A stretch of 64,000 bases of DNA. Origin: Bacteroidia bacterium. GTDB taxonomy: Bacteria > Bacteroidota > Bacteroidia > J057. The stretch covers positions 62,001-126,000 of the forward strand of contig JAUIGE010000006.1 in NCBI GenBank assembly GCA_030430205.1, in the 5' to 3' direction. Positions 406 to 19,013 of the stretch are shown here, piece by piece; positions within the stretch are counted from its first letter, which is position 1, and each line of letters starts with the position of its first letter. The notes beneath the pieces are model-generated. The model worked only from the letters and a program-made list of their open reading frames with translations. It was not told where the DNA came from and searched no databases. The translations under genes and the position numbers were made by a program.

Positions 406-548
406 CTTTATTTTCAAATACAATTTGATTCGCGGGTAAACGAGAGAAGCTGGTATTTGGTTTATTCCCGGTCTTTTTTTGATAGAGGGCCTTCTATCTT
501 TTGGAAATATTTGAATTTGGGTTGATTGTTGTTGAAATTAGCTTCCTT

Positions 549-3500
549 ATGAATTGGGGGAAGTTATTCGTTTTAGGCTGCTTGCTCATAGTCTCACATC
601 TTTGCTGGGGGCAGGACTACCTGGCTACGGTCCGCCAATATGGCGTTGCAGATGGCCTGTCACACCGTGAAGTCTACGGCATTCATGAGGACCAGCGGGG
701 CTTCATCTGGTTTGGCACCAAATATGGCCTGAATCGCTTCGACGGCTATCAATTCAAATGGTATTCCCGCGAAAAAAACGGCCTTAGCTCCAATGTTATT
801 CATCACATCATGGAGGATGCCGCCCACCGCCTGTGGCTATTTGAAAGCGATAATTGGTATCACAAAACGCCCCATACCCAAATTTCCATCTTCGATGTCG
901 AGCAGGAAAAAGCCATTTCTCCAGCATCTATTCCCGGATTGGAAGACTTGTTGGAGGCCCGGACACTGACGGGTTACCTGGCTTCGCCCCAACACACCCT
1001 TTACTTTAGCAAAAACAGCCAGCTTATCCGGTACCGGCCCGAAGAGGGATTGAAAAGCTATGCTTTTTCAGAATGGGAAGACTTTCAGATAAAATATTAT
1101 ACCTCAGACGATCATATCTGGGGAATCCGTGACAAAAAAATCCTGCTTGAGCTGGATACTTTGGGAAATGTCATTTCTCAATTTACCCTAGAAAAGCTGG
1201 CCAGTGAGGATTTTCGAGTGAAAATATTGGGAAAAGACACGGAAGGGAAGCTTTCCTTCACCCTCTACCACAACAGAAATTTCAAGGAAGGGAACAGCCG
1301 GCATGAGGTTTATCAACTCGATAAAACGGGTACATTTACCCTCCTCAATGAGCAGTTAGCCCAGGAACATAGGTTCCCTACAGATTGGGGAAGTGAATAT
1401 TTTTACCAGGCCCAACGAGATCTGTATTGGTACAAAGTGCTGCCGAAATTTTTTGTTTTTCAGAAAAAGGGGGGAATGATTTATGATTTCACGCATTCCT
1501 ATCCCGAGCTGGCCAATTCGCAGATTCACGAGATTTACTTTGACAATTCAGATAGAATCTGGTTGAGCAATACGCAAGGTCTTTTTCAAATCGACTTTAA
1601 CAGGAATCCCTTTCAACGCATCCTTTTTCAGGATCCATTGACCCAAAAGGCAGATAAAGTCAGTTGTCGTGCTTTATGGGTAGATGGGAAAAAACTGCAT
1701 ATAAACAGCTATCAAGGAGTTTTTATCCATGATCTTGATCACCAGACCACTTCCAAAAGGCCTTATCAGGACGATATAAACATCGGTGAGCCTGACCTTA
1801 TTTTCTATGATCCTTTGGCGATTTTCAAGGACAGCAAAGGTAACTTTTGGTATGGAGAAGAAAGGCTTATCAAAATAGATACAGCAGCTAACATCCAGGT
1901 GTACAGAACCATCGGAGATCACAATCCTGAGATTTGGAGTATATGGGAAGGGCCCACAGGGCGCATCTGGTTGGGAACCAACTCAGGCTTGATGTATTTT
2001 GATCCCACAGGATCATCTTCGGCTATCCAAAGCTTTCAACAGAAATTGGCGGGGCACAGAATATGGGCTTTTGTGGATGCCCCCACAGGGGACAGCTGTT
2101 ATTTGGCGACCTCAACAGGTCTCTATCTATTCGAGCCTCAGGCTAAGACTTTGAAGGCCTTATCTTTGCCTACTGACAAGATGAAGCTGCTCAGGACGGA
2201 CATCCGCCATCTTCACATTGACAGGGAAGAGGGGCTCTGGCTGGCCAGTTATGGGAGCGGTTTGATTCATTGGAACCGCAAGACAGACAGCCTCCGCCAA
2301 TATACCCTCGCTGATGGCCTGGCCAATAACAACCTCTACGCGGTCTATGAGGACCAGGCAGACAATCTCTGGCTTAGCAGTGATTATGGAATCATCATGT
2401 TTAACAAAAATACCCGGAGATCTAAAGGGTTTTTATTGAATAATGGGATCACCGACATAGAGTTTAACAGCATTTCACATTTCCAGGCGGAAGATGGGCA
2501 GTTATTTTTTGGGGGCTTGAATGGCGTTACGGCCTTTTATCCTTCTCTTTTACCCAATACCCAGCTGAGAAATCCGCCCAAATTGCAGATTTCAGCTTTT
2601 AAAAAATATGATAGCAGGGCCGATAGCGTACTTAATTTCACCCGTTCGATCACTCAAAACCCCAAAATCGTTTTAGCTCCGGGGGAGCGTTTTTTTGAAA
2701 TAGATTTTGCCCTGCTCTCCTTTGAAGAACCTCATTTGATTCGATATAATTATCTGATTGAAGGATTGGATAAAACATGGCGCCAGATCAGCACAAGAAG
2801 CCTGCAAATCAGTGGATTGCCTTATGGCAGCTTCACCTTGCGGGTAAAAGGCCAACTGGCCAATGGCCAGTTTTCTCCTTATGAATTGGCCATCCCGATA
2901 GAGGTTCTAAGGCCATTTTATGCGCAGTGGTGGTTTATTCTCATCAGCCTTGTGCTGCTGGCAGGACTTGTTTTTAGCTGGTATAAGGCCCGTACGACCA
3001 ATTTGGTCAAACGCAAAAACCGCCTGGAGAAACAAGTCAAACAAAGGACTTTGCAGATTCAGGAAGCCCAAAAGTTGCAGGAAGCTCAAAATAAACAGCT
3101 GGCCAAACAGGCGGAAGAACTCAAAGAGCTGGATAGCCTCAAATCCCGGTTTTTTGCCAATGTATCGCATGAACTCAGAACTCCCTTGAGTCTTATGCTG
3201 GGGCCGATCAATACGGCGCTTAAAAACCCGCAGATCACAAATAAAAATTTTACCCTGCTTTCCCTTGCCAAAAACAACGGTCAAAAGCTGCTTCAGATGG
3301 TCAATGAAATCCTGGATCTGACCAAATTTGAAAAGGATAAACTGACCCTTCAAAATGCCCCTACCCTATTTTACCAACTGGTAAAACAAATCCTGGCCAA
3401 TTTTGAGTATGAAGCCCAGCAAAAAAATATTCAATTTTTGTTTACCTATGAATTGTCACACCATGCGCAAGTGATGGTGGATTCGAAAAAATTTGAAGTG

Positions 3501-4697
3501 ATCTTGCGAAATTTACTTTCCAATGCCTTTAAATTTACGCCTCAAAACGGCAAGGTTGCGGTTCAGGTCAGTTCCGGGAAAAATGGAATTCTTGTCCAGG
3601 TGGAAGATACCGGAAGAGGCATACATGCGGAAGACCTGGAACATATTTTTGATCGGTTTTTCCAATCCAAACGCCCGGATGGCCCTACAGAAGGAGGCAC
3701 AGGCATAGGTTTATCTTTATGCAAAGCCTATGCGGAATTGATGGGGGGAGAGTTATGGGTGAGCAGCGAATGGGGCAAAGGAAGCGTTTTCCAGTTCCAA
3801 TTTCCAGGTACAGAAGTCATTGTAAGCATGGCAGCTGCACCTCCAAAACAAGATATTTCGGTTTTGCCTTTATCCTCCTTTACCGATCAGGATGATCCTT
3901 TACATTTGAATGAAGAGGAAGGTGACAAAGCTCATCTGCTGGTGGTGGAAGACAATCGGGATGTACAAACCTATCTCAAAACCCTATTGGATGGGCATTG
4001 GAGACTTAGTATGGCAGAAAATGGCCAGGCAGCTATGGATATTCTTGATTCCTTACCCCAAGGCCAACAAATAGATTTGATCATTTCGGATCTCATGATG
4101 CCGATCATGGATGGCTTTCAATTGGTGGAGACCATCCGTAACCATCCGGATTATTTGCATATTCCCCTGATCATGCTCACCGCCCGAGCAGATCAGCAGT
4201 CCAAATTAAAAGCCCTTCGCATAGGCGTAGATGATTTTTTGGCGAAGCCATTTGATGAAGAAGAACTCCTGGCCCGGATTGAGCATTTGTTGGCTTTCGC
4301 TGCCAAGCGAAATGAGATTCACGAAGAAGAATCCTCCACCGAAAGCGAGGACACTTCCGATTCAAAACTTTCACAGGCAGACCTGGCATGGCTGGCAGAG
4401 ATGGAACAACTCGTGCGAACGCATTTAGATAGTTTTGAACTCAACGCACAATCTCTCGCCGACAAGCTCTCCATAAGCAGGGTGCAACTCTATCGCAAGC
4501 TCAAAAAGTGTACAGGTCTCAGCCCTAGCGAGTACCTGCAGGAGGTGCGGTATCGCACCGCACGCGAACTCATGGAAACCCAACAAGTTGATTCTGTCAA
4601 AGCAGCAGCCTACCAGGTAGGCATCCGACACCTCGGAAAATTTGCGGGCGAATTCAAAAAACGATTCGGAAAATCCCCCTCTCAGTTTCTGTTTTAA
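549..4697 (+). CDS. Hybrid two-component system protein (HTCS): sensor kinase, receiver and AraC-type regulator in one chain
   Basis: A one-protein signalling system in the inner membrane. In order: signal peptide (residues 1-21, ending CWGQ), about 700 residues of Reg_prop beta-propeller repeats (motifs such as GLSHREVYGI, WFGTKYGLNRFDG and IWLGTNSGLMYFD), a Y_Y_Y domain, one membrane segment, a coiled coil, HisKA with FFANVSHELRTP (His at about 874), HATPase_c with NLLSNAFKF and GTGIGLSL, a receiver with SDLMMPIMDG (Asp at about 1181), and a C-terminal AraC-type HTH. An earlier TTG at 501 is in frame, but ATG 549 gives a proper signal peptide. In Bacteroides such proteins sense periplasmic ligands, often glycans, and activate nearby genes. 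The next gene is giant protein 1, with a repeat array between them that the HTH could bind. The ligand is unknown. Confidence 0.93.
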   Translation: MNWGKLFVLGCLLIVSHLCWGQDYLATVRQYGVADGLSHREVYGIHEDQRGFIWFGTKYGLNRFDGYQFKWYSREKNGLSSNVIHHIMEDAAHRLWLFESDNWYHKTPHTQISIFDVEQEKAISPASIPGLEDLLEARTLTGYLASPQHTLYFSKNSQLIRYRPEEGLKSYAFSEWEDFQIKYYTSDDHIWGIRDKKILLELDTLGNVISQFTLEKLASEDFRVKILGKDTEGKLSFTLYHNRNFKEGNSRHEVYQLDKTGTFTLLNEQLAQEHRFPTDWGSEYFYQAQRDLYWYKVLPKFFVFQKKGGMIYDFTHSYPELANSQIHEIYFDNSDRIWLSNTQGLFQIDFNRNPFQRILFQDPLTQKADKVSCRALWVDGKKLHINSYQGVFIHDLDHQTTSKRPYQDDINIGEPDLIFYDPLAIFKDSKGNFWYGEERLIKIDTAANIQVYRTIGDHNPEIWSIWEGPTGRIWLGTNSGLMYFDPTGSSSAIQSFQQKLAGHRIWAFVDAPTGDSCYLATSTGLYLFEPQAKTLKALSLPTDKMKLLRTDIRHLHIDREEGLWLASYGSGLIHWNRKTDSLRQYTLADGLANNNLYAVYEDQADNLWLSSDYGIIMFNKNTRRSKGFLLNNGITDIEFNSISHFQAEDGQLFFGGLNGVTAFYPSLLPNTQLRNPPKLQISAFKKYDSRADSVLNFTRSITQNPKIVLAPGERFFEIDFALLSFEEPHLIRYNYLIEGLDKTWRQISTRSLQISGLPYGSFTLRVKGQLANGQFSPYELAIPIEVLRPFYAQWWFILISLVLLAGLVFSWYKARTTNLVKRKNRLEKQVKQRTLQIQEAQKLQEAQNKQLAKQAEELKELDSLKSRFFANVSHELRTPLSLMLGPINTALKNPQITNKNFTLLSLAKNNGQKLLQMVNEILDLTKFEKDKLTLQNAPTLFYQLVKQILANFEYEAQQKNIQFLFTYELSHHAQVMVDSKKFEVILRNLLSNAFKFTPQNGKVAVQVSSGKNGILVQVEDTGRGIHAEDLEHIFDRFFQSKRPDGPTEGGTGIGLSLCKAYAELMGGELWVSSEWGKGSVFQFQFPGTEVIVSMAAAPPKQDISVLPLSSFTDQDDPLHLNEEEGDKAHLLVVEDNRDVQTYLKTLLDGHWRLSMAENGQAAMDILDSLPQGQQIDLIISDLMMPIMDGFQLVETIRNHPDYLHIPLIMLTARADQQSKLKALRIGVDDFLAKPFDEEELLARIEHLLAFAAKRNEIHEEESSTESEDTSDSKLSQADLAWLAEMEQLVRTHLDSFELNAQSLADKLSISRVQLYRKLKKCTGLSPSEYLQEVRYRTARELMETQQVDSVKAAAYQVGIRHLGKFAGEFKKRFGKSPSQFLF

Positions 4698-4704
4698 ACA
4701 ACAT

Positions 4705-4782
4705 GTAACATTTGAGATAGCCTTTGTAACCAAAGGGATAGTGATGTAACGATCCGGATACAGTTGGTAACGCATGCGATAT
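4705..4782 (+). promoter_or_regulatory. Four phased direct repeats GTAAC-N6-GATA, candidate activator-binding array
   Basis: GTAAC occurs at 4705, 4726, 4746 and 4767, at intervals of 21, 20 and 21 bases. Each copy is followed after exactly six bases by GATA (4716, 4737, 4757 and 4778). Two conserved boxes one helical turn apart, repeated every two turns, is the pattern expected for AraC-family proteins, whose two HTH motifs contact successive major grooves. The array begins 7 bases after the HTCS stop codon and ends 12 bases before a TAnnTTTG element, so the last copy occupies the -33 position. Binding by the HTCS is an inference. Confidence 0.7.
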
Positions 4783-4793
4783 CCCCTTCCCCC

Positions 4794-4801
4794 TAGCTTT
4801 G
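4794..4801 (+). promoter_or_regulatory. -7 element of the giant protein 1 promoter, lacking a -33 element
   Basis: TAGCTTTG matches TAnnTTTG exactly. No TTTG or TTG stands about 20 bases upstream, where the fourth GTAAC-N6-GATA repeat lies instead. That is the layout of an activator-dependent promoter. Transcription would start near 4808, leaving a leader of about 140 bases before ATG 4951. Confidence 0.55.
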
Positions 4802-4950
4802 AATCATAGACTTCAGCACGAATTATTTCAACCACCATTCCTCATCTCAACTATGCAGTTGTAGGGCTTTACATCTTGTTTTATTCCGTTCAGCACGCCT
4901 TTGTTGTCCTTTTTTTTTGCTTAACACATTCCTCACAAATTGTAATATTT

Positions 4951-7900
4951 ATGAACAAGCATTTACAAAAACATCTCACAATTAGGATAAGTTCCTGGCT
5001 GGCCTTTAAAGGCCAGCGGATCTTTTCCCTTGCTCTTTTAATTTTGATCAGTACCGCTTTTGCCTGGGGGCAATCTCCAATCAGGACGCCTCTCGATGGA
5101 GATAATGATAAAGCAATCAAATCCGATGCCTCCTATTTTGATAGTTATGTAAGTGACTGGTATGTCCATTTTTACTGGGAATTTGATGATCCCTCAGGAG
5201 AGAGCGATTTTGAAAGGTGGGAATATGCCGATGGCGCCCGGGATGGCTCAGCCATCTACCTTGTGGATGTCAACGGTTCCTATGTGGGTAACAACAAGGT
5301 AAGTACCTTGGCGAGATGGCCTCTCGGTCCAAATCAGAATTTCACCTTAGATAAAATGCGGGGAGCCCTCGACAATCAAACAGATGCTCATTTCGGAAAT
5401 AATAAAGATTATTATCTGCTGACCCTTCCTCCCAAACCCCCCACGAACCTTCAGGTCAAAACGACAGGTTTTGCGAGCATCACCATCGAATGGGATAAAA
5501 ATACAGATATCCCAGATCAGCATGTCGAATATGAGGTGTTGCTCAATGGCGTCGCGGTAGCCCCAAAGTTGCCTGCCTCAGCACGGGAGCATACATTTAC
5601 GGGTCTGGCTTCGGCGACGTTATACACCCTGGGTATTCGCACCACTTCCAAGGCAGGGGCTATTACCTATGATGGGTATACAATTAATTTTCAGGCTGCT
5701 AGTGGGAATACGGTCAATGTAGGTGCCACCACCCAACAATTGGCGATGAATGTCTCCAAGGGAACATTCCCTGACAAAGTGCGCCTGGAGTGGCCTTCCA
5801 TCGCAGGTAGCGATGCGGTCAATTTGCGCGTTGAGCGCAAGCCAAAGCATATTGTTGCAGCTTCCGCTTTTGCGGAGCAAACTATCCTGAGCAACCAGGC
5901 TACCGCCTGGAATGATACCGACGCGATTCCAGGATTGGAATATGATTATAGGGTCTCCGCTTTGAATGCAAGCGGAACCACTGTCTCAAGTGTTATTGGT
6001 CAAGGCTACATGAAACCCAATGGTATCCTGAAAGGAACGATTCGCTCCAAAGCAGGCACAGGAGTAGCAGGCGTCAGGGTCTGTGTCGTTCCAAAAGATC
6101 CCATCAATCCGGGTTCCCCCGTTCCTGTTCCCAACGGCGGATACTGCGCCACGACTCAGGCTGGAGGGGATTATGAGATTAGAAATATCTACTATTATGA
6201 TAGCGCGACGTTCATCGTGCAACCCACCTACCTGAATCATACTTTTGATCCGGTGAGTAAAAAAGTAATCCTGGATATCAATGCCAAAAGGCAGACTGGG
6301 ATAGACTTTTTGGATGAGTCAGCTATCACTGTAGGAGGTCAGGTCAAGTTCCCGCCTGCCAGCCAGTATTTTAATGGTAGCGCTTCCAAAATATGGGGGA
6401 TGGCAGGCGTCAATATTTTGATCGATGGGCTAGACCAGGGCGTAGTTACCGATGCAGAAGGCAAATGGTCTTATGCCCTAACCGACCCGGCCACTGTCAC
6501 AATTGAACCCCAGCATCCTTCGCATACTTTTTTGCCGGCAAGCAGAACCGAAATGATTGGCTCAACTGATAAGCTGGATGTTGACTTCGTAGATCAGACG
6601 GTAGACGACCTTCATGTCAATGTACTGGATGCTTGTGGGGATTCCCTCGCCTTGGCTGGTCAAGTTATTTCATTTATTCTGGAAGCGAAATTAGGCGCTG
6701 ACTACTATCATGCAAGCATCCCTACACAGCTGGATGGCACAGCCCGGCTGACCTTGCCTGCCACCAATTACAAATTGAGCATTGATCCTACCTCTCAGCC
6801 CAAATTCAACAACCTCAAGTACCCTACCGCTTTTGCTCAGCTCGATACCATCGACCTTATCGTCAATATGGCAGTACGCGATACCCTCACCACCACAACC
6901 ACAACCCGGAGAATCGTTAAAATCACACCCGAAAGGACGGTGGTGATCAATGGCCTGACTGTGACCCTACCCAAGGATACTACCTGGGCTACGGAGAAAA
7001 AGGTCGAAAAAATCGCTATCCAGCCCCTGGCTGATTTTACCTATTTTGGTCCCCTCGAATTTGAACTGGACTGGCAAAAAGCAGGTGCGGAGGTATTCAC
7101 GTGCAATTACACCCCTAACATCCCTGAAGTAATCGTACTGCAAGACGGCGGACGTTATGGGCTTAAGCTGCGGGTCATTGAGAAGGCTTCAGGTTGTCCG
7201 GTGGAAAGAGGAACAGTACAGGTATATGATGAGTTGGGGGATATCAAAAAGCCAATTACCCAGCAGGTGAAAAACGGAGAAGTACTCTATGTACTAAAAG
7301 CAGGCAAACCTAACCCCGCTATAGGCGGCGGTCATCCCAATATGAAATCCATCTACTTCTATGTAGAAGCGGGAGTGAGGCCTGCGGAAGGCATTGGGTA
7401 TTGGGCCCTGATAGAGGGCGCATTTGATGCGAGCCAGACATTTGTAAGCAGGAGTCCCGAGATTCCAGATTTGATTGTACATGACCCTCCGGGAGATGGG
7501 AGTTATGCCTGGGTGAGTGAAGGTTCAGAGATTTCCACTTTTACCCAGACAGAGTACGAAGAATCCAATTCCAATGGTGGCTATTCTGATGTTCTCCTGG
7601 GCGGAAAAGTTACGACGGAAATAGGCCTGGGATTCGCTCAGGAATTTGAAGTGGGGGCTGGAATTGAAGTAAAAACGGATTTGGAAGAAGGAAGAGAGGA
7701 ATTTAATTCTAAAGGAATAGTATCCACCTATACCTTTACCAATACATTCAGTACTTCTACTTTTCCCTTATTCACCGGTCACAATGGAGATGTATACATA
7801 GGGACATCTTTTAACCAGCATTTTGTAGATGCAGATGTGGTACTTTTTGATGAGATCAATTGTCAGACTATAGTTAAGCCAACGATCAGTATGGCGCCTG

Positions 7901-10900
7901 GAAAAGTCGCAACCACTTTCATTTATTCAGAAAAACACATCAAAGATGTCTTATTGATGCAATTAGGTTTCCTACAGGAAAACATAGAGAAGGAAGCTGA
8001 AAAACTTAAGGCTGAGGGAAAAAAGGCTGAAGCAGAAGTGAAATTCAAAGAGGCAGGAGATTTTAAAAATGACATCAAAACCTGGAATGAAATTTTGGAT
8101 TATAATGCCAAAAACAGAAATGAGGCAACCTTTATCGAAAATATCTCTTTCAGTGCCGGAGCGATCTTAGAAAGAACGGAAATCAATACCGATCAGGTTT
8201 CTGCCAGCTATGAGTACACTACTTTTTTGGACACAAGCACCTCTACAGGCGCCGTAATCGTGCAGGAAGGCGGCATTTGGAATGAAAACAGCGGTGGTAC
8301 AGCTGGCCATTTCCGAAGAACCAGCACAGAAATTGAGAGCAAGGATACAACCAAGAGTTTTGAAATTGGATTTGCGCTGGAAGATAATGAACCCGGAGAC
8401 TTTTTTAGCATTGATCTTAAAAAAGACAAAAAATACGGCACCTATGTATTTGATCTCAAAGGAGGCAATAGCGCATGTCCGACAGAACCGGGAACCAAAA
8501 ACAGAGATAAGGCAAAAATCGATATTGCCTCACCCTTTCAATCCAATGTCCCGGTAGGAGAAGAAGCGAAATTCACTGTTTCATTGACAAATTTGAGTCA
8601 AAGCAGGGAAAGTCGGGAGTATCACGTACGCGTCATTGGTGTCAGCAATCCTGACGGTCTTACCGTGTCGCTTGGCGGATGGCCAATCAATAACCAGCCT
8701 GCTTCTTTCTTCCTGGATTATGGGCAAACTTCTGAGATCACCATGAGCGTAGCACGTGGCCCCAATGCAGCCAACTATAAGGATGTGCAACTCATCATGT
8801 ATCCGCCTTGTGAGTATGAGTTATGGCAGGATGGCGGCTCCATTCCTAGTTCCGATACCGCTTCCTTCCAGCTCACATTTCAGACAGAGTGTACCTTCGC
8901 CAACATCACCCAACCCGCTGATGGCTGGTTGATCAATGGAAATAGTAGTCCCAATCTACTGCTAGGCCTTTCAGGTTACGATATCAGAAATCCCTATATG
9001 GAAAAGGTAGTGATTGAATTTAAACCCGATGGTCAGGGATGGCAATTTGGAACTGAGATTTATAGGTCAAAAACCGGCAACGCCAGCCAGGACAGCATTT
9101 GGGATACGGAGGCATTTCTAAACTGGAACCTGAGCAATTTGGCTGATGGAAGCTATCAGATCCGTGCCGTCACACACTGCAAAGGAGGGAGAGGCAAAAC
9201 CATTTCAGATGCCCAGCGCCTGCTGATAGACCGTGCTTCGGTAGAGCCTTTTGGAAGGCCTTCGCCTGCTGATGGTTTCCTCCGCTTTGGACAGGAGATC
9301 AGCATCACCTTTGATCAGGATATCAAGTGCAACTTTGCCCAATACGATCCTCAAGGCTCTCCTCAACCCAAAGTTGAGCTCAAAAACACCAAAACGGGTG
9401 CTTTGATCCCCATCAACAGGCAGTGTTCTGAAGGACAGGATAAGATTATCCTGGAACCCATTGAAGACATTTTCCAAAAACCAGAACTGGAAGGCGTCGT
9501 CCTGGAAGCCACAGTATTAGGCATCCAAAACCCAAGTGGAAATGTGCAGAAGTATCCGGCTATCTGGAAGTTTAAAGCAAATGTAAGCCCTGTATTTTGG
9601 GATCCGGATACCTTGAGGTTTTCTTTTGTGCAAGGGCACCCTAAACCTGTATCAGCCACGCTTAAAAACACTGCTGGCCTGACAAAATCCTTTAAGATCA
9701 CTCAGGTTCCCAACATTGTCACACCTGGCGTACTTTCAGGTTCGGTGCTCTCCAATGGTGAATATATCGTGGAATTTATGCCCAATCCAGCCTTGAAAGC
9801 AGGAACATATACAGAGTCTGTGACTGCAAGTATAGATGGTTTTGAGGAAAGATTGGTGATAGCTATCACCGTGGATGCTCATCAACCCAACTGGGTCGTC
9901 AGACCAGAGGATTTCGAATACAGCATGACCGTAGTCGCTGCGATGAGCCTGGATAACACCAACAATAATCTCTCAACAGATGAGCGGGATTTGGTAGCTG
10001 TGCTATACAATGGGGAGGTAAGAGGGCTTGCTAAATTGACCTATGTGCCAGAAGTCAATAAGCACCTCGCATTCATCAATGTGTACAGTAATATCCCCGC
10101 TAATGAGCAGATGGACTTCCTCCTGTGGCGTGCCTCCACGGGCGTGGAGCATATAGCTTTGGAGACTCTTTACTTCGGACAAAATATCATCAAAGGCACC
10201 CTGACAACTCCGGAAATTTTGCATCCCAATGGGGTTTTCCAGGTCATACCGCTCCAAAAAGGATGGAACTGGGTTTCTCTCAATGTGACCAATACGAATA
10301 ATACCGTTCACAACCTTTTGAAAAGCCTGTCCTCTCCCAAGGTAGGAAACGATGTGCTGGTAAAGCGAAAAGATGGCCAAACGGCGCTCTTTACGCAAAT
10401 AGCAACTCCGATTATCTATGCCAATCAGTGGAGTGGCCCTCTCCAGGAGCTGGACAACAAAAACGGATACATGATCCGCCTGTCCCATGCCCCTGACACC
10501 CTGCGCATACCCGGCCGACCCATCACGACTTTCCAGCCCATCGACCTCCTGAGCGGATGGAACTGGATCGGCTATCAGCCGCAGGAAGCCAAACCCATCA
10601 AGGAAGCCATGGCTTCTGTCAATATCCGCAACAAGGACCTGATGCGCAGCAGAGACGCCTTTTCGGAATATCGAAATGCAGACAAAAAATGGATTGGCCC
10701 CCTGCAATTTATGGAGCCGGGCCAAGGGTATAGGTTGTCGTTGAAAGTAGGCAAAACCTACAACGACTTGCTCTACAGCCGTCTGGGGCTGGATGACTTC
10801 AAAGTGGATCATACGAAGTATGAGAGTAATATGACGCTGATTGGGAGTGTGGGGGTAGGAGAGCCGAGAGGCGAGATCAGAGAGGAGAGACTGCTCGTAG

Positions 10901-11415
10901 GAGCTTTTATTGACGACACTTGTCGGGGGTATGGCTATGTGGAGTATGTGGAGTTTTTGGAAGAATATCGGGTGATTTTCAGCCTGAATGGCAATGCTTC
11001 GGATATGGGTCGCAAGCTGACTTTCAAAGTCTATGATACGCAATCCGGGCAGGAGTTTATTTCTGATAAACAGGAAGAGCTCTACGTTTCAGATCACATA
11101 TTGGGCGGGATGATGGAGCCTTTTGTGCTCTTCGAGCGCCTGGAACTGCCGGAGGTAGGCTACCTCCTGGAGCAGAATTATCCGAATCCTTATGATGCGA
11201 AGACGAATATTCGCTTTATCCTGCCAGAGGCAGGTCCGGTGAAGTTGACCGTCTACGATCAGATGGGCAAAACCGTCAAGGTTTTGGTAGATGAAGAGCT
11301 GAGCGCCGGAGAGCATACGGCTGTCTTTGAGGCCGCAAACCTCCCGGCTGGTGTCTACCACTATACGATTGAGGCCGGTGAATTTCGGGCGAGTCGGAAG
11401 ATGGTGAGGATGTAG
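4951..11415 (+). CDS. Giant T9SS-exported surface protein 1
   Basis: A 2154-residue protein predicted to be exported by T9SS and attached to the cell surface; its function is unknown. ATG 4951 is chosen because it puts a signal peptide (core SLALLILISTAFA, then WGQ) near the N terminus; the frame is open further up. Order: variable head with SDWYVHFYW, Fn3-like domains, carboxypeptidase-regulatory-like repeats (GVAGVRVCV, GDYEIRNIYYYDSA), a core with HDPPGDGSYAW near residue 844, a charged helical stretch at about 1014-1055, beta domains, two GWNW repeats (about 1771 and 1870), a domain with DDTCRGYGYVEYVEFLEEY, and a type A sorting domain from YPNPYD (about 2076). It is paralogous to 19245-25535 and 29789-36304. 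It is probably controlled by the upstream HTCS. An adhesin or matrix role is a guess. Confidence 0.9.
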   Translation: MNKHLQKHLTIRISSWLAFKGQRIFSLALLILISTAFAWGQSPIRTPLDGDNDKAIKSDASYFDSYVSDWYVHFYWEFDDPSGESDFERWEYADGARDGSAIYLVDVNGSYVGNNKVSTLARWPLGPNQNFTLDKMRGALDNQTDAHFGNNKDYYLLTLPPKPPTNLQVKTTGFASITIEWDKNTDIPDQHVEYEVLLNGVAVAPKLPASAREHTFTGLASATLYTLGIRTTSKAGAITYDGYTINFQAASGNTVNVGATTQQLAMNVSKGTFPDKVRLEWPSIAGSDAVNLRVERKPKHIVAASAFAEQTILSNQATAWNDTDAIPGLEYDYRVSALNASGTTVSSVIGQGYMKPNGILKGTIRSKAGTGVAGVRVCVVPKDPINPGSPVPVPNGGYCATTQAGGDYEIRNIYYYDSATFIVQPTYLNHTFDPVSKKVILDINAKRQTGIDFLDESAITVGGQVKFPPASQYFNGSASKIWGMAGVNILIDGLDQGVVTDAEGKWSYALTDPATVTIEPQHPSHTFLPASRTEMIGSTDKLDVDFVDQTVDDLHVNVLDACGDSLALAGQVISFILEAKLGADYYHASIPTQLDGTARLTLPATNYKLSIDPTSQPKFNNLKYPTAFAQLDTIDLIVNMAVRDTLTTTTTTRRIVKITPERTVVINGLTVTLPKDTTWATEKKVEKIAIQPLADFTYFGPLEFELDWQKAGAEVFTCNYTPNIPEVIVLQDGGRYGLKLRVIEKASGCPVERGTVQVYDELGDIKKPITQQVKNGEVLYVLKAGKPNPAIGGGHPNMKSIYFYVEAGVRPAEGIGYWALIEGAFDASQTFVSRSPEIPDLIVHDPPGDGSYAWVSEGSEISTFTQTEYEESNSNGGYSDVLLGGKVTTEIGLGFAQEFEVGAGIEVKTDLEEGREEFNSKGIVSTYTFTNTFSTSTFPLFTGHNGDVYIGTSFNQHFVDADVVLFDEINCQTIVKPTISMAPGKVATTFIYSEKHIKDVLLMQLGFLQENIEKEAEKLKAEGKKAEAEVKFKEAGDFKNDIKTWNEILDYNAKNRNEATFIENISFSAGAILERTEINTDQVSASYEYTTFLDTSTSTGAVIVQEGGIWNENSGGTAGHFRRTSTEIESKDTTKSFEIGFALEDNEPGDFFSIDLKKDKKYGTYVFDLKGGNSACPTEPGTKNRDKAKIDIASPFQSNVPVGEEAKFTVSLTNLSQSRESREYHVRVIGVSNPDGLTVSLGGWPINNQPASFFLDYGQTSEITMSVARGPNAANYKDVQLIMYPPCEYELWQDGGSIPSSDTASFQLTFQTECTFANITQPADGWLINGNSSPNLLLGLSGYDIRNPYMEKVVIEFKPDGQGWQFGTEIYRSKTGNASQDSIWDTEAFLNWNLSNLADGSYQIRAVTHCKGGRGKTISDAQRLLIDRASVEPFGRPSPADGFLRFGQEISITFDQDIKCNFAQYDPQGSPQPKVELKNTKTGALIPINRQCSEGQDKIILEPIEDIFQKPELEGVVLEATVLGIQNPSGNVQKYPAIWKFKANVSPVFWDPDTLRFSFVQGHPKPVSATLKNTAGLTKSFKITQVPNIVTPGVLSGSVLSNGEYIVEFMPNPALKAGTYTESVTASIDGFEERLVIAITVDAHQPNWVVRPEDFEYSMTVVAAMSLDNTNNNLSTDERDLVAVLYNGEVRGLAKLTYVPEVNKHLAFINVYSNIPANEQMDFLLWRASTGVEHIALETLYFGQNIIKGTLTTPEILHPNGVFQVIPLQKGWNWVSLNVTNTNNTVHNLLKSLSSPKVGNDVLVKRKDGQTALFTQIATPIIYANQWSGPLQELDNKNGYMIRLSHAPDTLRIPGRPITTFQPIDLLSGWNWIGYQPQEAKPIKEAMASVNIRNKDLMRSRDAFSEYRNADKKWIGPLQFMEPGQGYRLSLKVGKTYNDLLYSRLGLDDFKVDHTKYESNMTLIGSVGVGEPRGEIREERLLVGAFIDDTCRGYGYVEYVEFLEEYRVIFSLNGNASDMGRKLTFKVYDTQSGQEFISDKQEELYVSDHILGGMMEPFVLFERLELPEVGYLLEQNYPNPYDAKTNIRFILPEAGPVKLTVYDQMGKTVKVLVDEELSAGEHTAVFEAANLPAGVYHYTIEAGEFRASRKMVRM
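10858..10902 (+). repeat. Purine-rich repeat element in frame within giant gene 1
   Basis: This stretch, containing AGAGAGGAGAGACTGCT, resembles purine-rich intergenic repeat DNA found elsewhere in the window. It encodes a short charged loop ending REERLLVGAF. Related DNA sits at the same place in the two paralogs, with different lengths. Confidence 0.5.
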
Positions 11416-12826: not shown

Positions 12827-13810
12827 TTAGGAGAGATTATCCCCACTTTCCCCACACCCACCCCACCGCTTCCGATACACACTCGGCAGCAAGCCCGTAT
12901 GCCGCAAAAACAGCTCCCGAAAAGTATTCATATCCGCATATCCCACGGCTGTCATGGCCTCTCCTACCCGGTGGTTGGTGCTTTCGAGCAGGCGCTTGGC
13001 TTCTTCTATGCGGAGGCGCTGCTGGTAGGTGTGGGGCGGGTCGCCGGTGGCTTGCTTGAAGCGGCGGATGAGGTTGCGGCGGCTCATGCCGAAGTGGTCG
13101 GCCAGTTTGGCGACGGAGATATTTTCGCGAAAATGTTTTTCCAGGTAGCTCTGGATTTGCAGCACGGTCTCGTCTGCGTGCAGCTTTTGGTTGTTGAAGA
13201 TCATGAAGGGTGCCTGGGAAGTGCGGTGGTAGTCTATTTCGAAGATTTTCGAAAGATGCACGGCCGTGGCCTTGTTGACAAACTTCTCGATCAGGTAGAT
13301 GATCAGGTTGAAGGAGGAGAGGGTGCCGCCGGAGGTGTACATGCCGTCCATGTCGGTGATCACGGCCTCCGGCCGCCACTGCACGCGCGGATAGAGCGCC
13401 TGTAGCTCGGGCATCGCCGCCCAGTGGGAGGAAGCCTCTTTCCCGTCGAGATGGCCGGTATCGGCCAGCAGGTAAGCACCCGTGCATACGCTGCCCAGTT
13501 CGCTGCCCTTCTCCTGGCGGAGGTACCGCATCCACCCGACGATGGCCTGGTTGTCGGCCGTCGCCTGCCGGTGATTGCCCTCCAGCGGAGGGACGATCAC
13601 CAGATCGACTTCGTCGATTTCATCCAACTGCGCATCTATCTGCGTGCTGAAGCGCCCGATCCGGCGCGTTTTAACCTTCTGGGCCGTGGCCGTTTTGACC
13701 TCAAAATGCTCTCCCGGAAAGCTGTTGGCAGCTTCCAGGACCGTGGCGATGCCGGAGATGCCGATCATGCTGTTTTGTCCCTCCGGTATGGGAATGACGA
13801 TTTTTTTCAT
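12827..13810 (-). CDS. GlxA-type transcriptional regulator (DJ-1/PfpI domain plus AraC HTH)
   Basis: A 327-residue regulator. ATG 13810 (MKKIVIPIPEG) is preferred over the upstream in-frame ATG because it begins exactly with the first strand of the DJ-1/PfpI fold. The N-terminal half has that fold, with Cys109 in GSVCTGAYLLADTG, the usual nucleophile-elbow position, although in regulators the domain serves as a sensor. The C-terminal 110 residues hold two HTH motifs (VAKLADHFGMSRRNLIRRFK and a second around VGYADMNTFRELF). It is divergent from the beta-lactamase-like gene with 72 bases between them, so that gene is a plausible target. The ligand is unknown. Confidence 0.88.
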   Translation of the reverse strand: MKKIVIPIPEGQNSMIGISGIATVLEAANSFPGEHFEVKTATAQKVKTRRIGRFSTQIDAQLDEIDEVDLVIVPPLEGNHRQATADNQAIVGWMRYLRQEKGSELGSVCTGAYLLADTGHLDGKEASSHWAAMPELQALYPRVQWRPEAVITDMDGMYTSGGTLSSFNLIIYLIEKFVNKATAVHLSKIFEIDYHRTSQAPFMIFNNQKLHADETVLQIQSYLEKHFRENISVAKLADHFGMSRRNLIRRFKQATGDPPHTYQQRLRIEEAKRLLESTNHRVGEAMTAVGYADMNTFRELFLRHTGLLPSVYRKRWGGCGESGDNLS

Positions 13811-13882
13811 TTGGCACAAATACCTATAAGTATTGTCCAATATGCTTATTTTCTCCCGGAAAGCTTTGGCCTAATATGGGGG

Positions 13883-15790: not shown

Positions 15791-16085
15791 TCAGTTTCAA
15801 AATTAAGAGTGTGAAAATTATGCTACTTTTTAAAAGCTTATCGTAGCTCAATTTAAAAGTTTTTCCTGAATATTTGGACCTTTAGCTGGCGATTCCCGGA
15901 CTTTCCTACAAAAAATCAAAAGGCATTCAGGAAGGCATGATCTGTTTTTACATCTGCGCCCTCTGGCTGATCCATTACGGTCCCAATCCTGCACAATACC
16001 CTTTTTAGATTGGCCTGACATCCTCCAATTTTGTTATTTGCCAGTATCAAACAGAAGCTTTTCCTTTTTTCAACACCTTTACTTT

Positions 16086-16826
16086 ATGGCAAAACTGAAT
16101 ATAATGATCGTGGAGGATGAGCTCATCATTGCTGAGCACCTTTCGCTGATCCTGGAGGATTTGGGCTATGAGGTAGCGGGCATTGCTGCCGATTATCAGG
16201 AAGCTGTTGCGATTGTAAAGTCCCAAAGGCCGGATTTTGCGCTACTTGACGTCGTCATTGATGGTCGTAAATCAGGGATTGATATTGCCCATTTTATCAG
16301 AAAACAATCCCCTCAAATCCCCTTTGTCTACCTTAGCTCTCATGCGGATAAGAAGACCGTGGAGGCAGCTAAAAAGACCCAACCGAATGGCTATCTGGTG
16401 AAGCCTTTTGAGGCGGATGATGTCTATACGGCCATTGAGATGGCTTTACTCAATTTTGGAGGTGCTGCTGGGAAGGCAGAGTCAAATGGCGAATTACTTG
16501 ATGAAGAAGGCTTTTTTATCAAGGAAGATCACGTTTTCATCAAAATACATTTTTCGGATATCGATTGGATTGAATCTGCAAAAAACTATCTATTGATTCA
16601 CACTCCTCAAACCACACATAGGATTCGTGCCACCTTTGGCGAAATCGAATCCCGCTTGCCGCGTGACCTTTTCTTCAGGGTACACAAATCCTATCTTGTC
16701 CATTCACAAAAAATCACTTCCACAAACGGCAACTTCGTGGTTATCAAAAATAAGCTGATCCCTGTAGGACGTAGCAAACGAAAGGCTTTACAGGCTTTGA
16801 TCAGAAAAGGCAAATTTGAAGGCTAA
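16086..16826 (+). CDS. LytTR-family response regulator
   Basis: A 246-residue regulator. ATG 16086 (MAKLNIMIVEDE) is chosen over an upstream in-frame ATG because it begins the receiver fold directly. The receiver carries Asp55 in FALLDVVIDG and the conserved Lys in GYLVKPF. The C-terminal LytTR DNA-binding domain runs from about residue 150 (FIKIHFSDIDWIESAKNYL to RVHKSYLVHSQKI). It is probably phosphorylated by the kinase 26 bases downstream. The pair precedes giant gene 2, a plausible target. Confidence 0.93.
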   Translation: MAKLNIMIVEDELIIAEHLSLILEDLGYEVAGIAADYQEAVAIVKSQRPDFALLDVVIDGRKSGIDIAHFIRKQSPQIPFVYLSSHADKKTVEAAKKTQPNGYLVKPFEADDVYTAIEMALLNFGGAAGKAESNGELLDEEGFFIKEDHVFIKIHFSDIDWIESAKNYLLIHTPQTTHRIRATFGEIESRLPRDLFFRVHKSYLVHSQKITSTNGNFVVIKNKLIPVGRSKRKALQALIRKGKFEG

Positions 16827-16852
16827 GCCTTCTCCCTTTCAACAAGCATCTC

Positions 16853-18913
16853 ATGAAATTTACATTCCATCTCATTCTCTTGTGCTTACTTTCATATTTG
16901 TTGTCTCCACTTAAGGGCCAGGCACAGGTTCTTCCTGACAGCCTGGAGCAACAAATAGGGGTTACTCACCCTCTTCAACGGCTTGCAAAAATAAGCCAAT
17001 TAGCACTTGATTATCAGCAGACTGACCCGAAGGTATCACGGCTACTTGCTAAACAGGCAATCAAGCTTGCCAGAGAAGTGGGAGATCCTGAAGATCAATA
17101 CATCGAAAAGATGAACTTAGCAGAAACGTATAAATTGTTAGGGCATAGAGATTCAACCCGATTGATGGTACGGGAAATATTTGCGGATTCTTCAAAAGAG
17201 GAGGTGTATCCGGCCCTCAAATATGCTTTCCAACATGAAGCCAGTTGGTATTTTGGGAAAAGGAAACTCGATTCGGCCCTGTTTTTTGCTAAAAAATGCC
17301 AACAATATGCATTTGCAGATGGTGCTAACAACCTGGAGGTTTCCAGCTTTAATATGATGGGGAATATTTACAAATACCAAAGTAAGTGGGAACTGGCAGT
17401 AGATGCTTTTTTGAATTGCCTCGACAGAATAGGGCATCTCAACCCTGGCCAGACAGCCATTATTTACAATAATCTGGCTCCCATATACTCCAAATTAGGC
17501 CAGCATGACAAAACACTTTTTTACTTAAAAAGATCTCTTGCCATCCGGGATTCTATAGGAATGAAAAGAGGGCTTGAATTATTATTCCTTAATATGGGAT
17601 TGGCCTATAGAAATTTGGCGGATCATGTGCGTGCGGATAGTTGTTTTGGTGCCAGTGTTAAGTGGTGTGAAGACCATCAGGCATGGCGTTTTTGGGGAGA
17701 AGGCCTCATCAGGCAAGCCGAAACCGCCATCGATTTGAAAAATCATTCCAAGGCGCTGAGTCTATTGGAAAAACTTCCTACCCGCTATCCCTCAGATGAT
17801 GATCAGATCTATTCTTATCTCTATTATAAAGTAAAAGGAGAAGCCTTGTTAGGGCTGGGAAGAGCCCGGGAAGCTGTCCTGGCAGGCGAAAAATCCCTCG
17901 AAAAAGCTCACGCCAGTCAATCTCCCCAAAGTCGGCTTATTGCCTATCATATATTGAAAGCGGCTCATGCGCAAGCAGGAAATTTTGAAAAGGCATATAA
18001 GCTGGCCAAGCTCGAAGAAAACCTGAGAGACAGTCTGTTGGATGTCGAAAAGGTGAATGCCCTGGCTGATATGGAGGCGAAATACCAAAATGAGCAAAAA
18101 CAAGCTCAATTAGAGCTCAATCAGAGCTTATTGGCACAAGAGCAGGCGGAAAATGCGCAAAAAACAACCTTGCTTGGGGCCATTGGTTTGGGGGCTATCT
18201 TGCTGTTGGTGGCTGTAGGCCTAACAGCCTTTTTTCTACGAAAAACACAAAAACTCAACCATCAGCTCAATCGGTCCAACGATCAGAAAGCTTCTCTGCT
18301 CCGAGAGATTCATCACCGGGTCAAGAATAACCTCCAGGTGATCTCCAGCCTCCTGGAACTCCAGGCACGGCAGGAGACAGATGAATCTGTCCGTGACAGC
18401 ATAGCCGAAGGCCGCAACCGCGTCAAGTCGATGGCGCTTATCCATCAAAAACTCTATCAGACAGAGGACCTCGCAGAGGTCGATTTTCAGGACTACCTGG
18501 ACCAATTGGTCCAGGTGCTGGGCCAGAGCTTTCAGCAAAAGGACCGAAAGATCCATACACAGATCGTGGCAAACGATATCAAGCTGGACATAGACACCGC
18601 TGTGCCTTTGGGCCTGATCGTCAATGAATTGGTGACCAATGCTTACAAATATGCTTTCCCCGGCAGGAAAGAAGGCAACATACAGATACGCATCGAAAAA
18701 GCCCTCAGCGAGGAGGGATACCTCCTCAGCGTCTCCGACGACGGCGTCGGATTGCCGGATGGCTTTTCTGCACAGCAGGCCCGCTCACTGGGCCTACGCC
18801 TCGTCAACATCCTGAGCAAACAGCTCAAGGGTCAGCTGGAAGTCTTCTCGGATGCCGGCGCGCATTTCAACGTCCACTTCAGCGAAAAATCCGCCCGCCT
18901 AGCAGCCAACTAA
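16853..18913 (+). CDS. TPR-containing sensor histidine kinase (HisKA_2 type)
   Basis: A 686-residue inner-membrane kinase. It has a signal peptide (residues 1-24), about 400 residues of TPR-like helical repeats outside the membrane (for example NNLAPIYSKLGQHDKTLFYL), a coiled coil, a membrane segment at about 438-463, then HisKA_2 with REIHHRVKNNLQVISSLLEL (His at about 487) and HATPase_c with VNELVTNAYKYAF and DDGVGLP. The gap to the response regulator is 26 bases, so they form one operon. In other Bacteroidota, kinases of this build pair with LytTR regulators. The signal it senses is unknown. A heptamer repeat starts immediately after its stop codon. Confidence 0.92.
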   Translation: MKFTFHLILLCLLSYLLSPLKGQAQVLPDSLEQQIGVTHPLQRLAKISQLALDYQQTDPKVSRLLAKQAIKLAREVGDPEDQYIEKMNLAETYKLLGHRDSTRLMVREIFADSSKEEVYPALKYAFQHEASWYFGKRKLDSALFFAKKCQQYAFADGANNLEVSSFNMMGNIYKYQSKWELAVDAFLNCLDRIGHLNPGQTAIIYNNLAPIYSKLGQHDKTLFYLKRSLAIRDSIGMKRGLELLFLNMGLAYRNLADHVRADSCFGASVKWCEDHQAWRFWGEGLIRQAETAIDLKNHSKALSLLEKLPTRYPSDDDQIYSYLYYKVKGEALLGLGRAREAVLAGEKSLEKAHASQSPQSRLIAYHILKAAHAQAGNFEKAYKLAKLEENLRDSLLDVEKVNALADMEAKYQNEQKQAQLELNQSLLAQEQAENAQKTTLLGAIGLGAILLLVAVGLTAFFLRKTQKLNHQLNRSNDQKASLLREIHHRVKNNLQVISSLLELQARQETDESVRDSIAEGRNRVKSMALIHQKLYQTEDLAEVDFQDYLDQLVQVLGQSFQQKDRKIHTQIVANDIKLDIDTAVPLGLIVNELVTNAYKYAFPGRKEGNIQIRIEKALSEEGYLLSVSDDGVGLPDGFSAQQARSLGLRLVNILSKQLKGQLEVFSDAGAHFNVHFSEKSARLAAN

Positions 18914-18922
18914 CCCAAAACA

Positions 18923-18978
18923 CGAAACCCAAAACCCAAAACCCGAAACCCGAAACCCAAAACCCGAAACCCGAAACC
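18923..18978 (+). repeat. Tandem heptamer C(G/A)AAACC, eight units
   Basis: There are eight perfect 7-base units that differ only at the second base (G or A), preceded from 18914 by degenerate copies. The tract begins at the stop codon of the kinase. The same heptamer, in inverted form, occurs at 47775-47892 and 63862-63922. Confidence 0.85.
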
Positions 18979-19013
18979 TTTCATCCCTCCCCAGATGCAG
19001 TTCGTCCCAGATT

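Follow-up and report, generated by a model that had tools for sequence, protein, structure and literature searches.

Near the start of the window, as we call the whole stretch of 64,000 nucleotides that was analysed, lies the gene of a hybrid two-component system, HTCS1. Its product was assigned to the HTCSs because it joins a Reg_prop propeller plus Y_Y_Y sensor, HisKA, HATPase_c, REC and an AraC-type HTH_18 domain in one chain. An earlier note on this DNA had placed the end of the gene 7 bases upstream of a repeat array, and the open reading frame indeed ends at 4697, 7 bases ahead of the first repeat copy. The gene beyond the array encodes a giant surface protein with fn3, CarboxypepD_reg and Por_Secre_tail domains. 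The features of the locus, including the point at which HTCS1 diverges from its paralogue HTCS2, are the following.

501 to 4697, + strand: HTCS1, hybrid two-component system and proposed regulator (open reading frame, domain search)
3195 to 3206, + strand: approximate junction, at residue ~900 just past the H-box, where identity between HTCS1 and HTCS2 drops (identity by residue window)
4705 to 4719, + strand: repeat copy 1, GTAAC-N6-GATA (exact match, sequence read)
4726 to 4740, + strand: repeat copy 2, GTAAC-N6-GATA (exact match, sequence read)
4746 to 4760, + strand: repeat copy 3, GTAAC-N6-GATA (exact match, sequence read)
4767 to 4781, + strand: repeat copy 4, the promoter-proximal GTAAC-N6-GATA (exact match)
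4794 to 4801, + strand: TAGCTTTG, exact TAnnTTTG -7 box, 12 bases past copy 4 (sequence read, motif scan)
4951 to 11415, + strand: giant surface protein gene, ATG at 4951, 2154 amino acids, proposed target (open reading frame, domain search)

The four phased copies at intervals of 21, 20 and 21 bases described by the earlier note were all recovered, starting at 4705, 4726, 4746 and 4767. They are direct repeats with a period of about 21 bases, in which the distance from GTAAC to GATA is fixed within the units and the distance from unit to unit varies by 1 base. Conservation is confined to the two boxes; the N6 between them and most of the linkers differ among the copies. In the window, the exact pattern occurs in the four array copies only. 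Since 9 matches with at most one mismatch were found in the window (the array's four included) against 6.6 expected, single near-copies are meaningless. The whole genome (7.24 Mb, both strands) holds 24 exact copies, 4 of them in the array and the other 20 scattered with respect to each other. Paired copies with at most three mismatches at a spacing of 20 bases were obtained at 4 places in the genome, the array being one of them, compared to 5 for a reversed-pattern control; at a spacing of 21 bases there were 2 places, both inside the array, compared to 9 control matches. Neither the exact nor the paired-copy search of the genome revealed a second such array; the search at spacings of 20-21 bases is the one that the earlier note had put forward as a check. 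For a pattern-free test, we aligned four 16-base copies at spacings of 19-23 and kept the highest number of columns that were identical; the gap after HTCS1 reached 9 identical columns, and 400 dinucleotide shuffles reached 6 at most. The array was not flagged by a pairwise 14-base test (best 10 at spacing 20, and 9 at spacing 21), because its conservation is limited to two short boxes. Two other readings of the gap were rejected: an RNA element, as the region 4600-5100 was without an Rfam match at E 1 and the gap folded no better than shuffles (z 0.71), and a recombination site, as only short, chance-like pairs were listed for an inverted arrangement of the repeats.

Housekeeping promoters of Bacteroidota carry TTTG at -33. 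No TTTG was read between 4767 and 4793, and copy 4 overlies what we take to be the position of the -33 element. The box at 4794-4801 matches the TAnnTTTG -7 consensus of Bacteroidota housekeeping promoters, as stated in the portion of PMC9723704 at hand. There, the box spans -12 to -5, which would place the transcription start about 5 bases past 4801. The gap thus contains the perfect -7 box without a -33 element that the earlier note had reported, and the missing TTTG is as expected for an activator-dependent promoter. Further downstream, early in the coding sequence of the giant gene, a perfect palindrome, GCTGGCCTTTAAAGGCCAGC, is found at 4998-5017 of the window.

To see whether 21-base repeats mark HTCS genes, we took the top 80 HTCS loci from relatives and compared the gaps adjacent to the HTCS gene (n=115) with the other gaps of the same loci (n=171). 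Repeats of at least 11/14 at spacing 21 were present in 20/115 HTCS-adjacent gaps versus 6/171 other gaps, and at spacing 22 in 8/115 versus 1/171, whereas the remaining spacings from 12 to 44 gave 0-4 adjacent and 0-6 other gaps at the same threshold. With at least 12/14, the figures at 21 and 22 were 12/115 and 3/115 for adjacent gaps versus 2/171 and 1/171 for other gaps. About 14 of the repeat-positive gaps come from two groups, Winogradskyella/Hyunsoonleella and marine Flavobacteriaceae, each made up of close relatives, so that the number of independent cases is smaller than these counts. A TAnnTTTG box lies 20-28 bases past the second copy in 16/48 rows, mostly two-site cases, which by eye correspond to about four independent groups (7 close relatives, another 7 close relatives, L044 and L108); when the -7 distances were grouped by the words that the gaps share, unrelated AT-rich gaps were fused. 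In the HTCS1 gap, the box lies 14 bases past the 14-base copy window by hand count. Chains of at least three loose copies (9/14) occurred in 13/115 adjacent gaps at spacings of 20-22, compared to 11, 2, 5 and 6/115 at four control spacings, and in 5/171 other gaps; as this is no clear excess, we did not use them as evidence.

Some of the nearest kin of HTCS1 carry arrays of other sequences. In a tree of the cytoplasmic halves (27 rows, three further requested rows being absent from the alignment), HTCS1 forms a clade of five rows with L039, L040, L041 and L042 (95/94 support). The gap after the HTCS gene of L039 (L039:6284-6560) holds five phased copies (22/20/20/22) of a AAAYGRGTGGGTA-like unit, and that of L040 (L040:9946-10128) four (22/20/22). 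Both arrays are followed by a TAnnTTTG box, TACATTTG or TATGTTTG, 9 bases past the last box compared to 12 in the HTCS1 gap (hand count). These two loci are close relatives and count as one independent case; their copy numbers, five and four, differ nevertheless. L041 has two copies and L042, of the same clade, no comparable array. L045, which is outside the tree, has three copies; the Parabacteroides HTCS L106 has four, ahead of a GH5 gene. By the strict four-copy test, scores of 9 were reached by L106 and L039, and L040 scored 6, a score shared by 16/115 adjacent gaps, while none of the 171 other gaps scored above 7; the L039 gap stands outside the 115, because no further complete open reading frame of 100 residues fits on its contig. 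A search of 395 genomes from the class, in which the 11 top candidates per genome were scored, revealed no DNA-binding domain closer than 45% identity other than in the genome of HTCS1 itself; as no close orthologue was obtained, the exact GTAAC/GATA motif has no phylogenetic footprint. Five loci fetched outside the own genome (L141-L145) comprise three without a repeat of at least 11/14 at 20-22 downstream; L144 and L145 have a single 11/14 repeat at 21, 369 and 404 bases downstream of the stop, respectively. Most HTCSs carry the motif S/C-H-I-P at the REC-HTH interface according to the part of PMC11253607 available, whereas HTCS1 has LHIP, so that its degree of self-inhibition may differ.

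The putative target belongs to a family of 11 in the genome, paralogues of ~2150 residues and 46-49% identity, eight of which cluster on the contig of the window. Paralogues are located on contigs C61, C14, C31 and C29, the members in the window being at 4951, 19245 and 29789. A genome of the same genus yielded no giant relatives at E 1e-40 (six candidates scored), and genome G003 has two (41%), both without an upstream repeat of at least 11. HTCS2 also directly precedes a giant paralogue, and a third HTCS, on C14, adjoins the 3' end of another. We rejected one operator common to all 11 giant genes, as their upstream gaps differ: besides the array after HTCS1, a repeat of at least 12/14 at spacing 21 occurs in each of the HTCS2, C14 and C31 gaps, that of C61_21841 has one 11/14 repeat at 22, and the other six have no repeat of at least 11/14 at 20-22 (one of their starts, near C61:47400, being approximate). 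The C14 repeat precedes its giant gene at about 7 kb from the C14 HTCS gene, with TAnnTTTG 27 bases past the repeat. Repeats of 21 bases, differing in sequence, were likewise seen in this genome next to HTCS2 and to HTCS-type genes on C19 and C37, none of the three being followed by an exact TAnnTTTG. No repeat of at least 11 at 20-22 was present in the gaps immediately next to the HTCS or HTCS-like genes of C70, C60 (two examined), C43 (277837-281979) and C20. On C31, the 21-base direct repeat before the giant gene (L136:10207-10248) has a LytTR regulator nearby rather than an HTCS. In the window, a simple repeat of the CCCAAAACCCGAAACCC type occupies 18914-18980, between a LytTR system and its giant gene.

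HTCS2 (L119:504-4640) is a paralogue of HTCS1 with an uneven resemblance to it: the sensors share 62% identity, the kinase parts 42%, the REC domains 43% and the HTH domains 31%, the opposite of the trend in the other HTCS pairs compared alongside, in which REC is better conserved than the sensor. Along the chain, identity drops from 84% over residues 851-900 to 31% over residues 901-950, and the DNA similarity detected by blastn stops at gene base 2672. In a sensor tree, HTCS1 and HTCS2 are sisters (100/100). In the tree of the cytoplasmic halves they stand separately, and a forced grouping was rejected with p-AU 1.4e-65, for a pair that was picked after the identities had been seen. As the neighbours of HTCS1 are the same in both trees and those of HTCS2 change, these data suggest that HTCS2 is probably the recombinant of the pair. 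The gaps of the two genes hold different repeats, that of HTCS2 being a two-site ATAASTCCATGC repeat, as predicted for a change of DNA-binding domain. What is new here is this natural swap pair, whose members resemble each other in the sensor and differ in the output half and in their repeats. On a tentative view, natural recombination might have wired one sensor to two output halves, four-site in HTCS1 and two-site in HTCS2, each beside a paralogous giant gene, so that one ligand could drive two separately tuned surface programmes; copy number, which is 2, 3, 4 or 5 across HTCS gaps, could then be an evolvable dial for promoter cooperativity.

Taken together, the HTH_18 domain of HTCS1, the enrichment of repeats at 21-22 bases beside HTCS genes and the arrays of its kin support the proposal of the earlier note that the array is the binding site through which HTCS1 would control the giant surface protein gene. 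From sequence comparisons, we put the probability that the array is the HTCS1 operator at about 0.79. The array is a direct repeat of about 21-base period upstream of an HTCS-adjacent gene, as HTCS operators are, but it has four sites where these have two, as also seen with four or five in L039, L040 and L106. It is therefore a variant rather than a standard HTCS operator, most likely an enlarged form of the known two-site one. In the proposed mechanism, each 15-base unit would bind one AraC-type output domain, with one helix-turn-helix motif on GTAAC and the other on GATA; from centre to centre, these boxes are separated by 10.5 bases, or one turn. Units repeated every two turns would lie on the same helix face, so that two adjacent dimers could fit on the four. 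A domain bound to the last unit, at the -33 position of a promoter that lacks a -33 element and has a good -7 box, might contact RNA polymerase. Ligand binding to the periplasmic propeller would lead HTCS1 to phosphorylate its own receiver domain, which would free the output domain to bind the array and switch the giant gene on.

LytTR operators are direct repeats about two turns apart, and the earlier note had named the response regulator of the second two-component system of the window (16038-18913) as an alternative protein for the array. Repeats of this kind do occur beside LytTR genes. In 30 loci, taken from a much larger number of matches, we examined 40 gaps flanking 30 LytTR genes; 5 of these gaps have repeats of at least 11/14 at spacing 21, two being simple repeats. 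A 21-base repeat also precedes the C31 giant gene with its nearby LytTR regulator. As the rate in LytTR gaps is similar to that of HTCS gaps, spacing alone cannot name the regulator, which slightly lowered our confidence in HTCS1, though at 12/14 or more the proportions are 1/40 for LytTR gaps versus 12/115 for HTCS-adjacent ones. The alternative nevertheless appears unlikely, and less likely than HTCS1, since the giant-gene gap of the LytTR system itself has no exact GTAAC-N6-GATA copy and the full LytTR consensus is absent from both gaps; its best match in the array gap is 8/9, once per strand and not repeated in phase. Moreover, the LytTR gene is 11 kb from the array, whereas the HTCS gene ends 7 bases upstream, and two boxes per unit fit an AraC domain better.

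The two-box geometry is common to AraC domains and would also suit another protein of this family, such as the DJ-1/PfpI-AraC regulator at 12827-13840 (- strand), which has an HTH_18 domain, or one encoded elsewhere. We regard this as still less probable, because no exact GTAAC-N6-GATA copy lies near the DJ-1/PfpI-AraC gene and studied HTCSs act on neighbouring loci, as described in the sections available of PMC3404733 and PMC3878776. Arrays such as those of L039 and L040, with five and four copies in close relatives, evidently grow and shrink, and the repeats might be a chance remnant of tandem duplication without a regulatory role. Conserved boxes between diverged N6 and linker sequences are, however, unexpected from recent duplication, and the place, phasing and -7 box suit an operator, which makes such a remnant the most improbable of these explanations.

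With LytTR operators, the array shares direct repeats about two turns apart, but these operators have one box per unit and their consensus was not found in the array gap. Two-site, 21-base HTCS operators are already known: in the text at hand of Ravcheev 2013 (PMC3878776), 16 HTCS motifs of B. thetaiotaomicron take the form of two-site direct repeats that average 21 bases, with sites of 12-16 bases and spacers of 5-9 bases. HTCS operators described so far in the literature covered are predicted two-site repeats in Bacteroides, and among the papers that our searches of open PubMed Central literature listed, no title or abstract described four-site HTCS arrays or natural HTCS chimeras. Like the Bacteroides operators of PMC3878776, as far as its available text goes, the array consists of ~21-base direct repeats of HTCS-specific sequence upstream of an HTCS-adjacent gene; unlike them, it has four units instead of two, the target is a T9SS-type giant surface protein instead of a SusC/SusD locus, and the host, judged by its relatives, is not a Bacteroides. 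A form with four to five sites beside giant secreted surface genes, and not polysaccharide loci, would widen the roles of HTCSs, and the HTCS1/HTCS2 pair lends itself to testing the joint evolution of sensor, output domain and operator. A counterpart of this pair is the laboratory chimera BT1754/BT0366, reported in the accessible part of PMC3404733, where ChIP-seq showed BT0366 binding at the adjacent locus and some distant ones. In the chimera too, a sensor was joined to the output half of another HTCS and the response was rewired, but the HTCS1/HTCS2 pair is natural, and its junction lies just past the H-box inside HisKA rather than shortly after the membrane segment.
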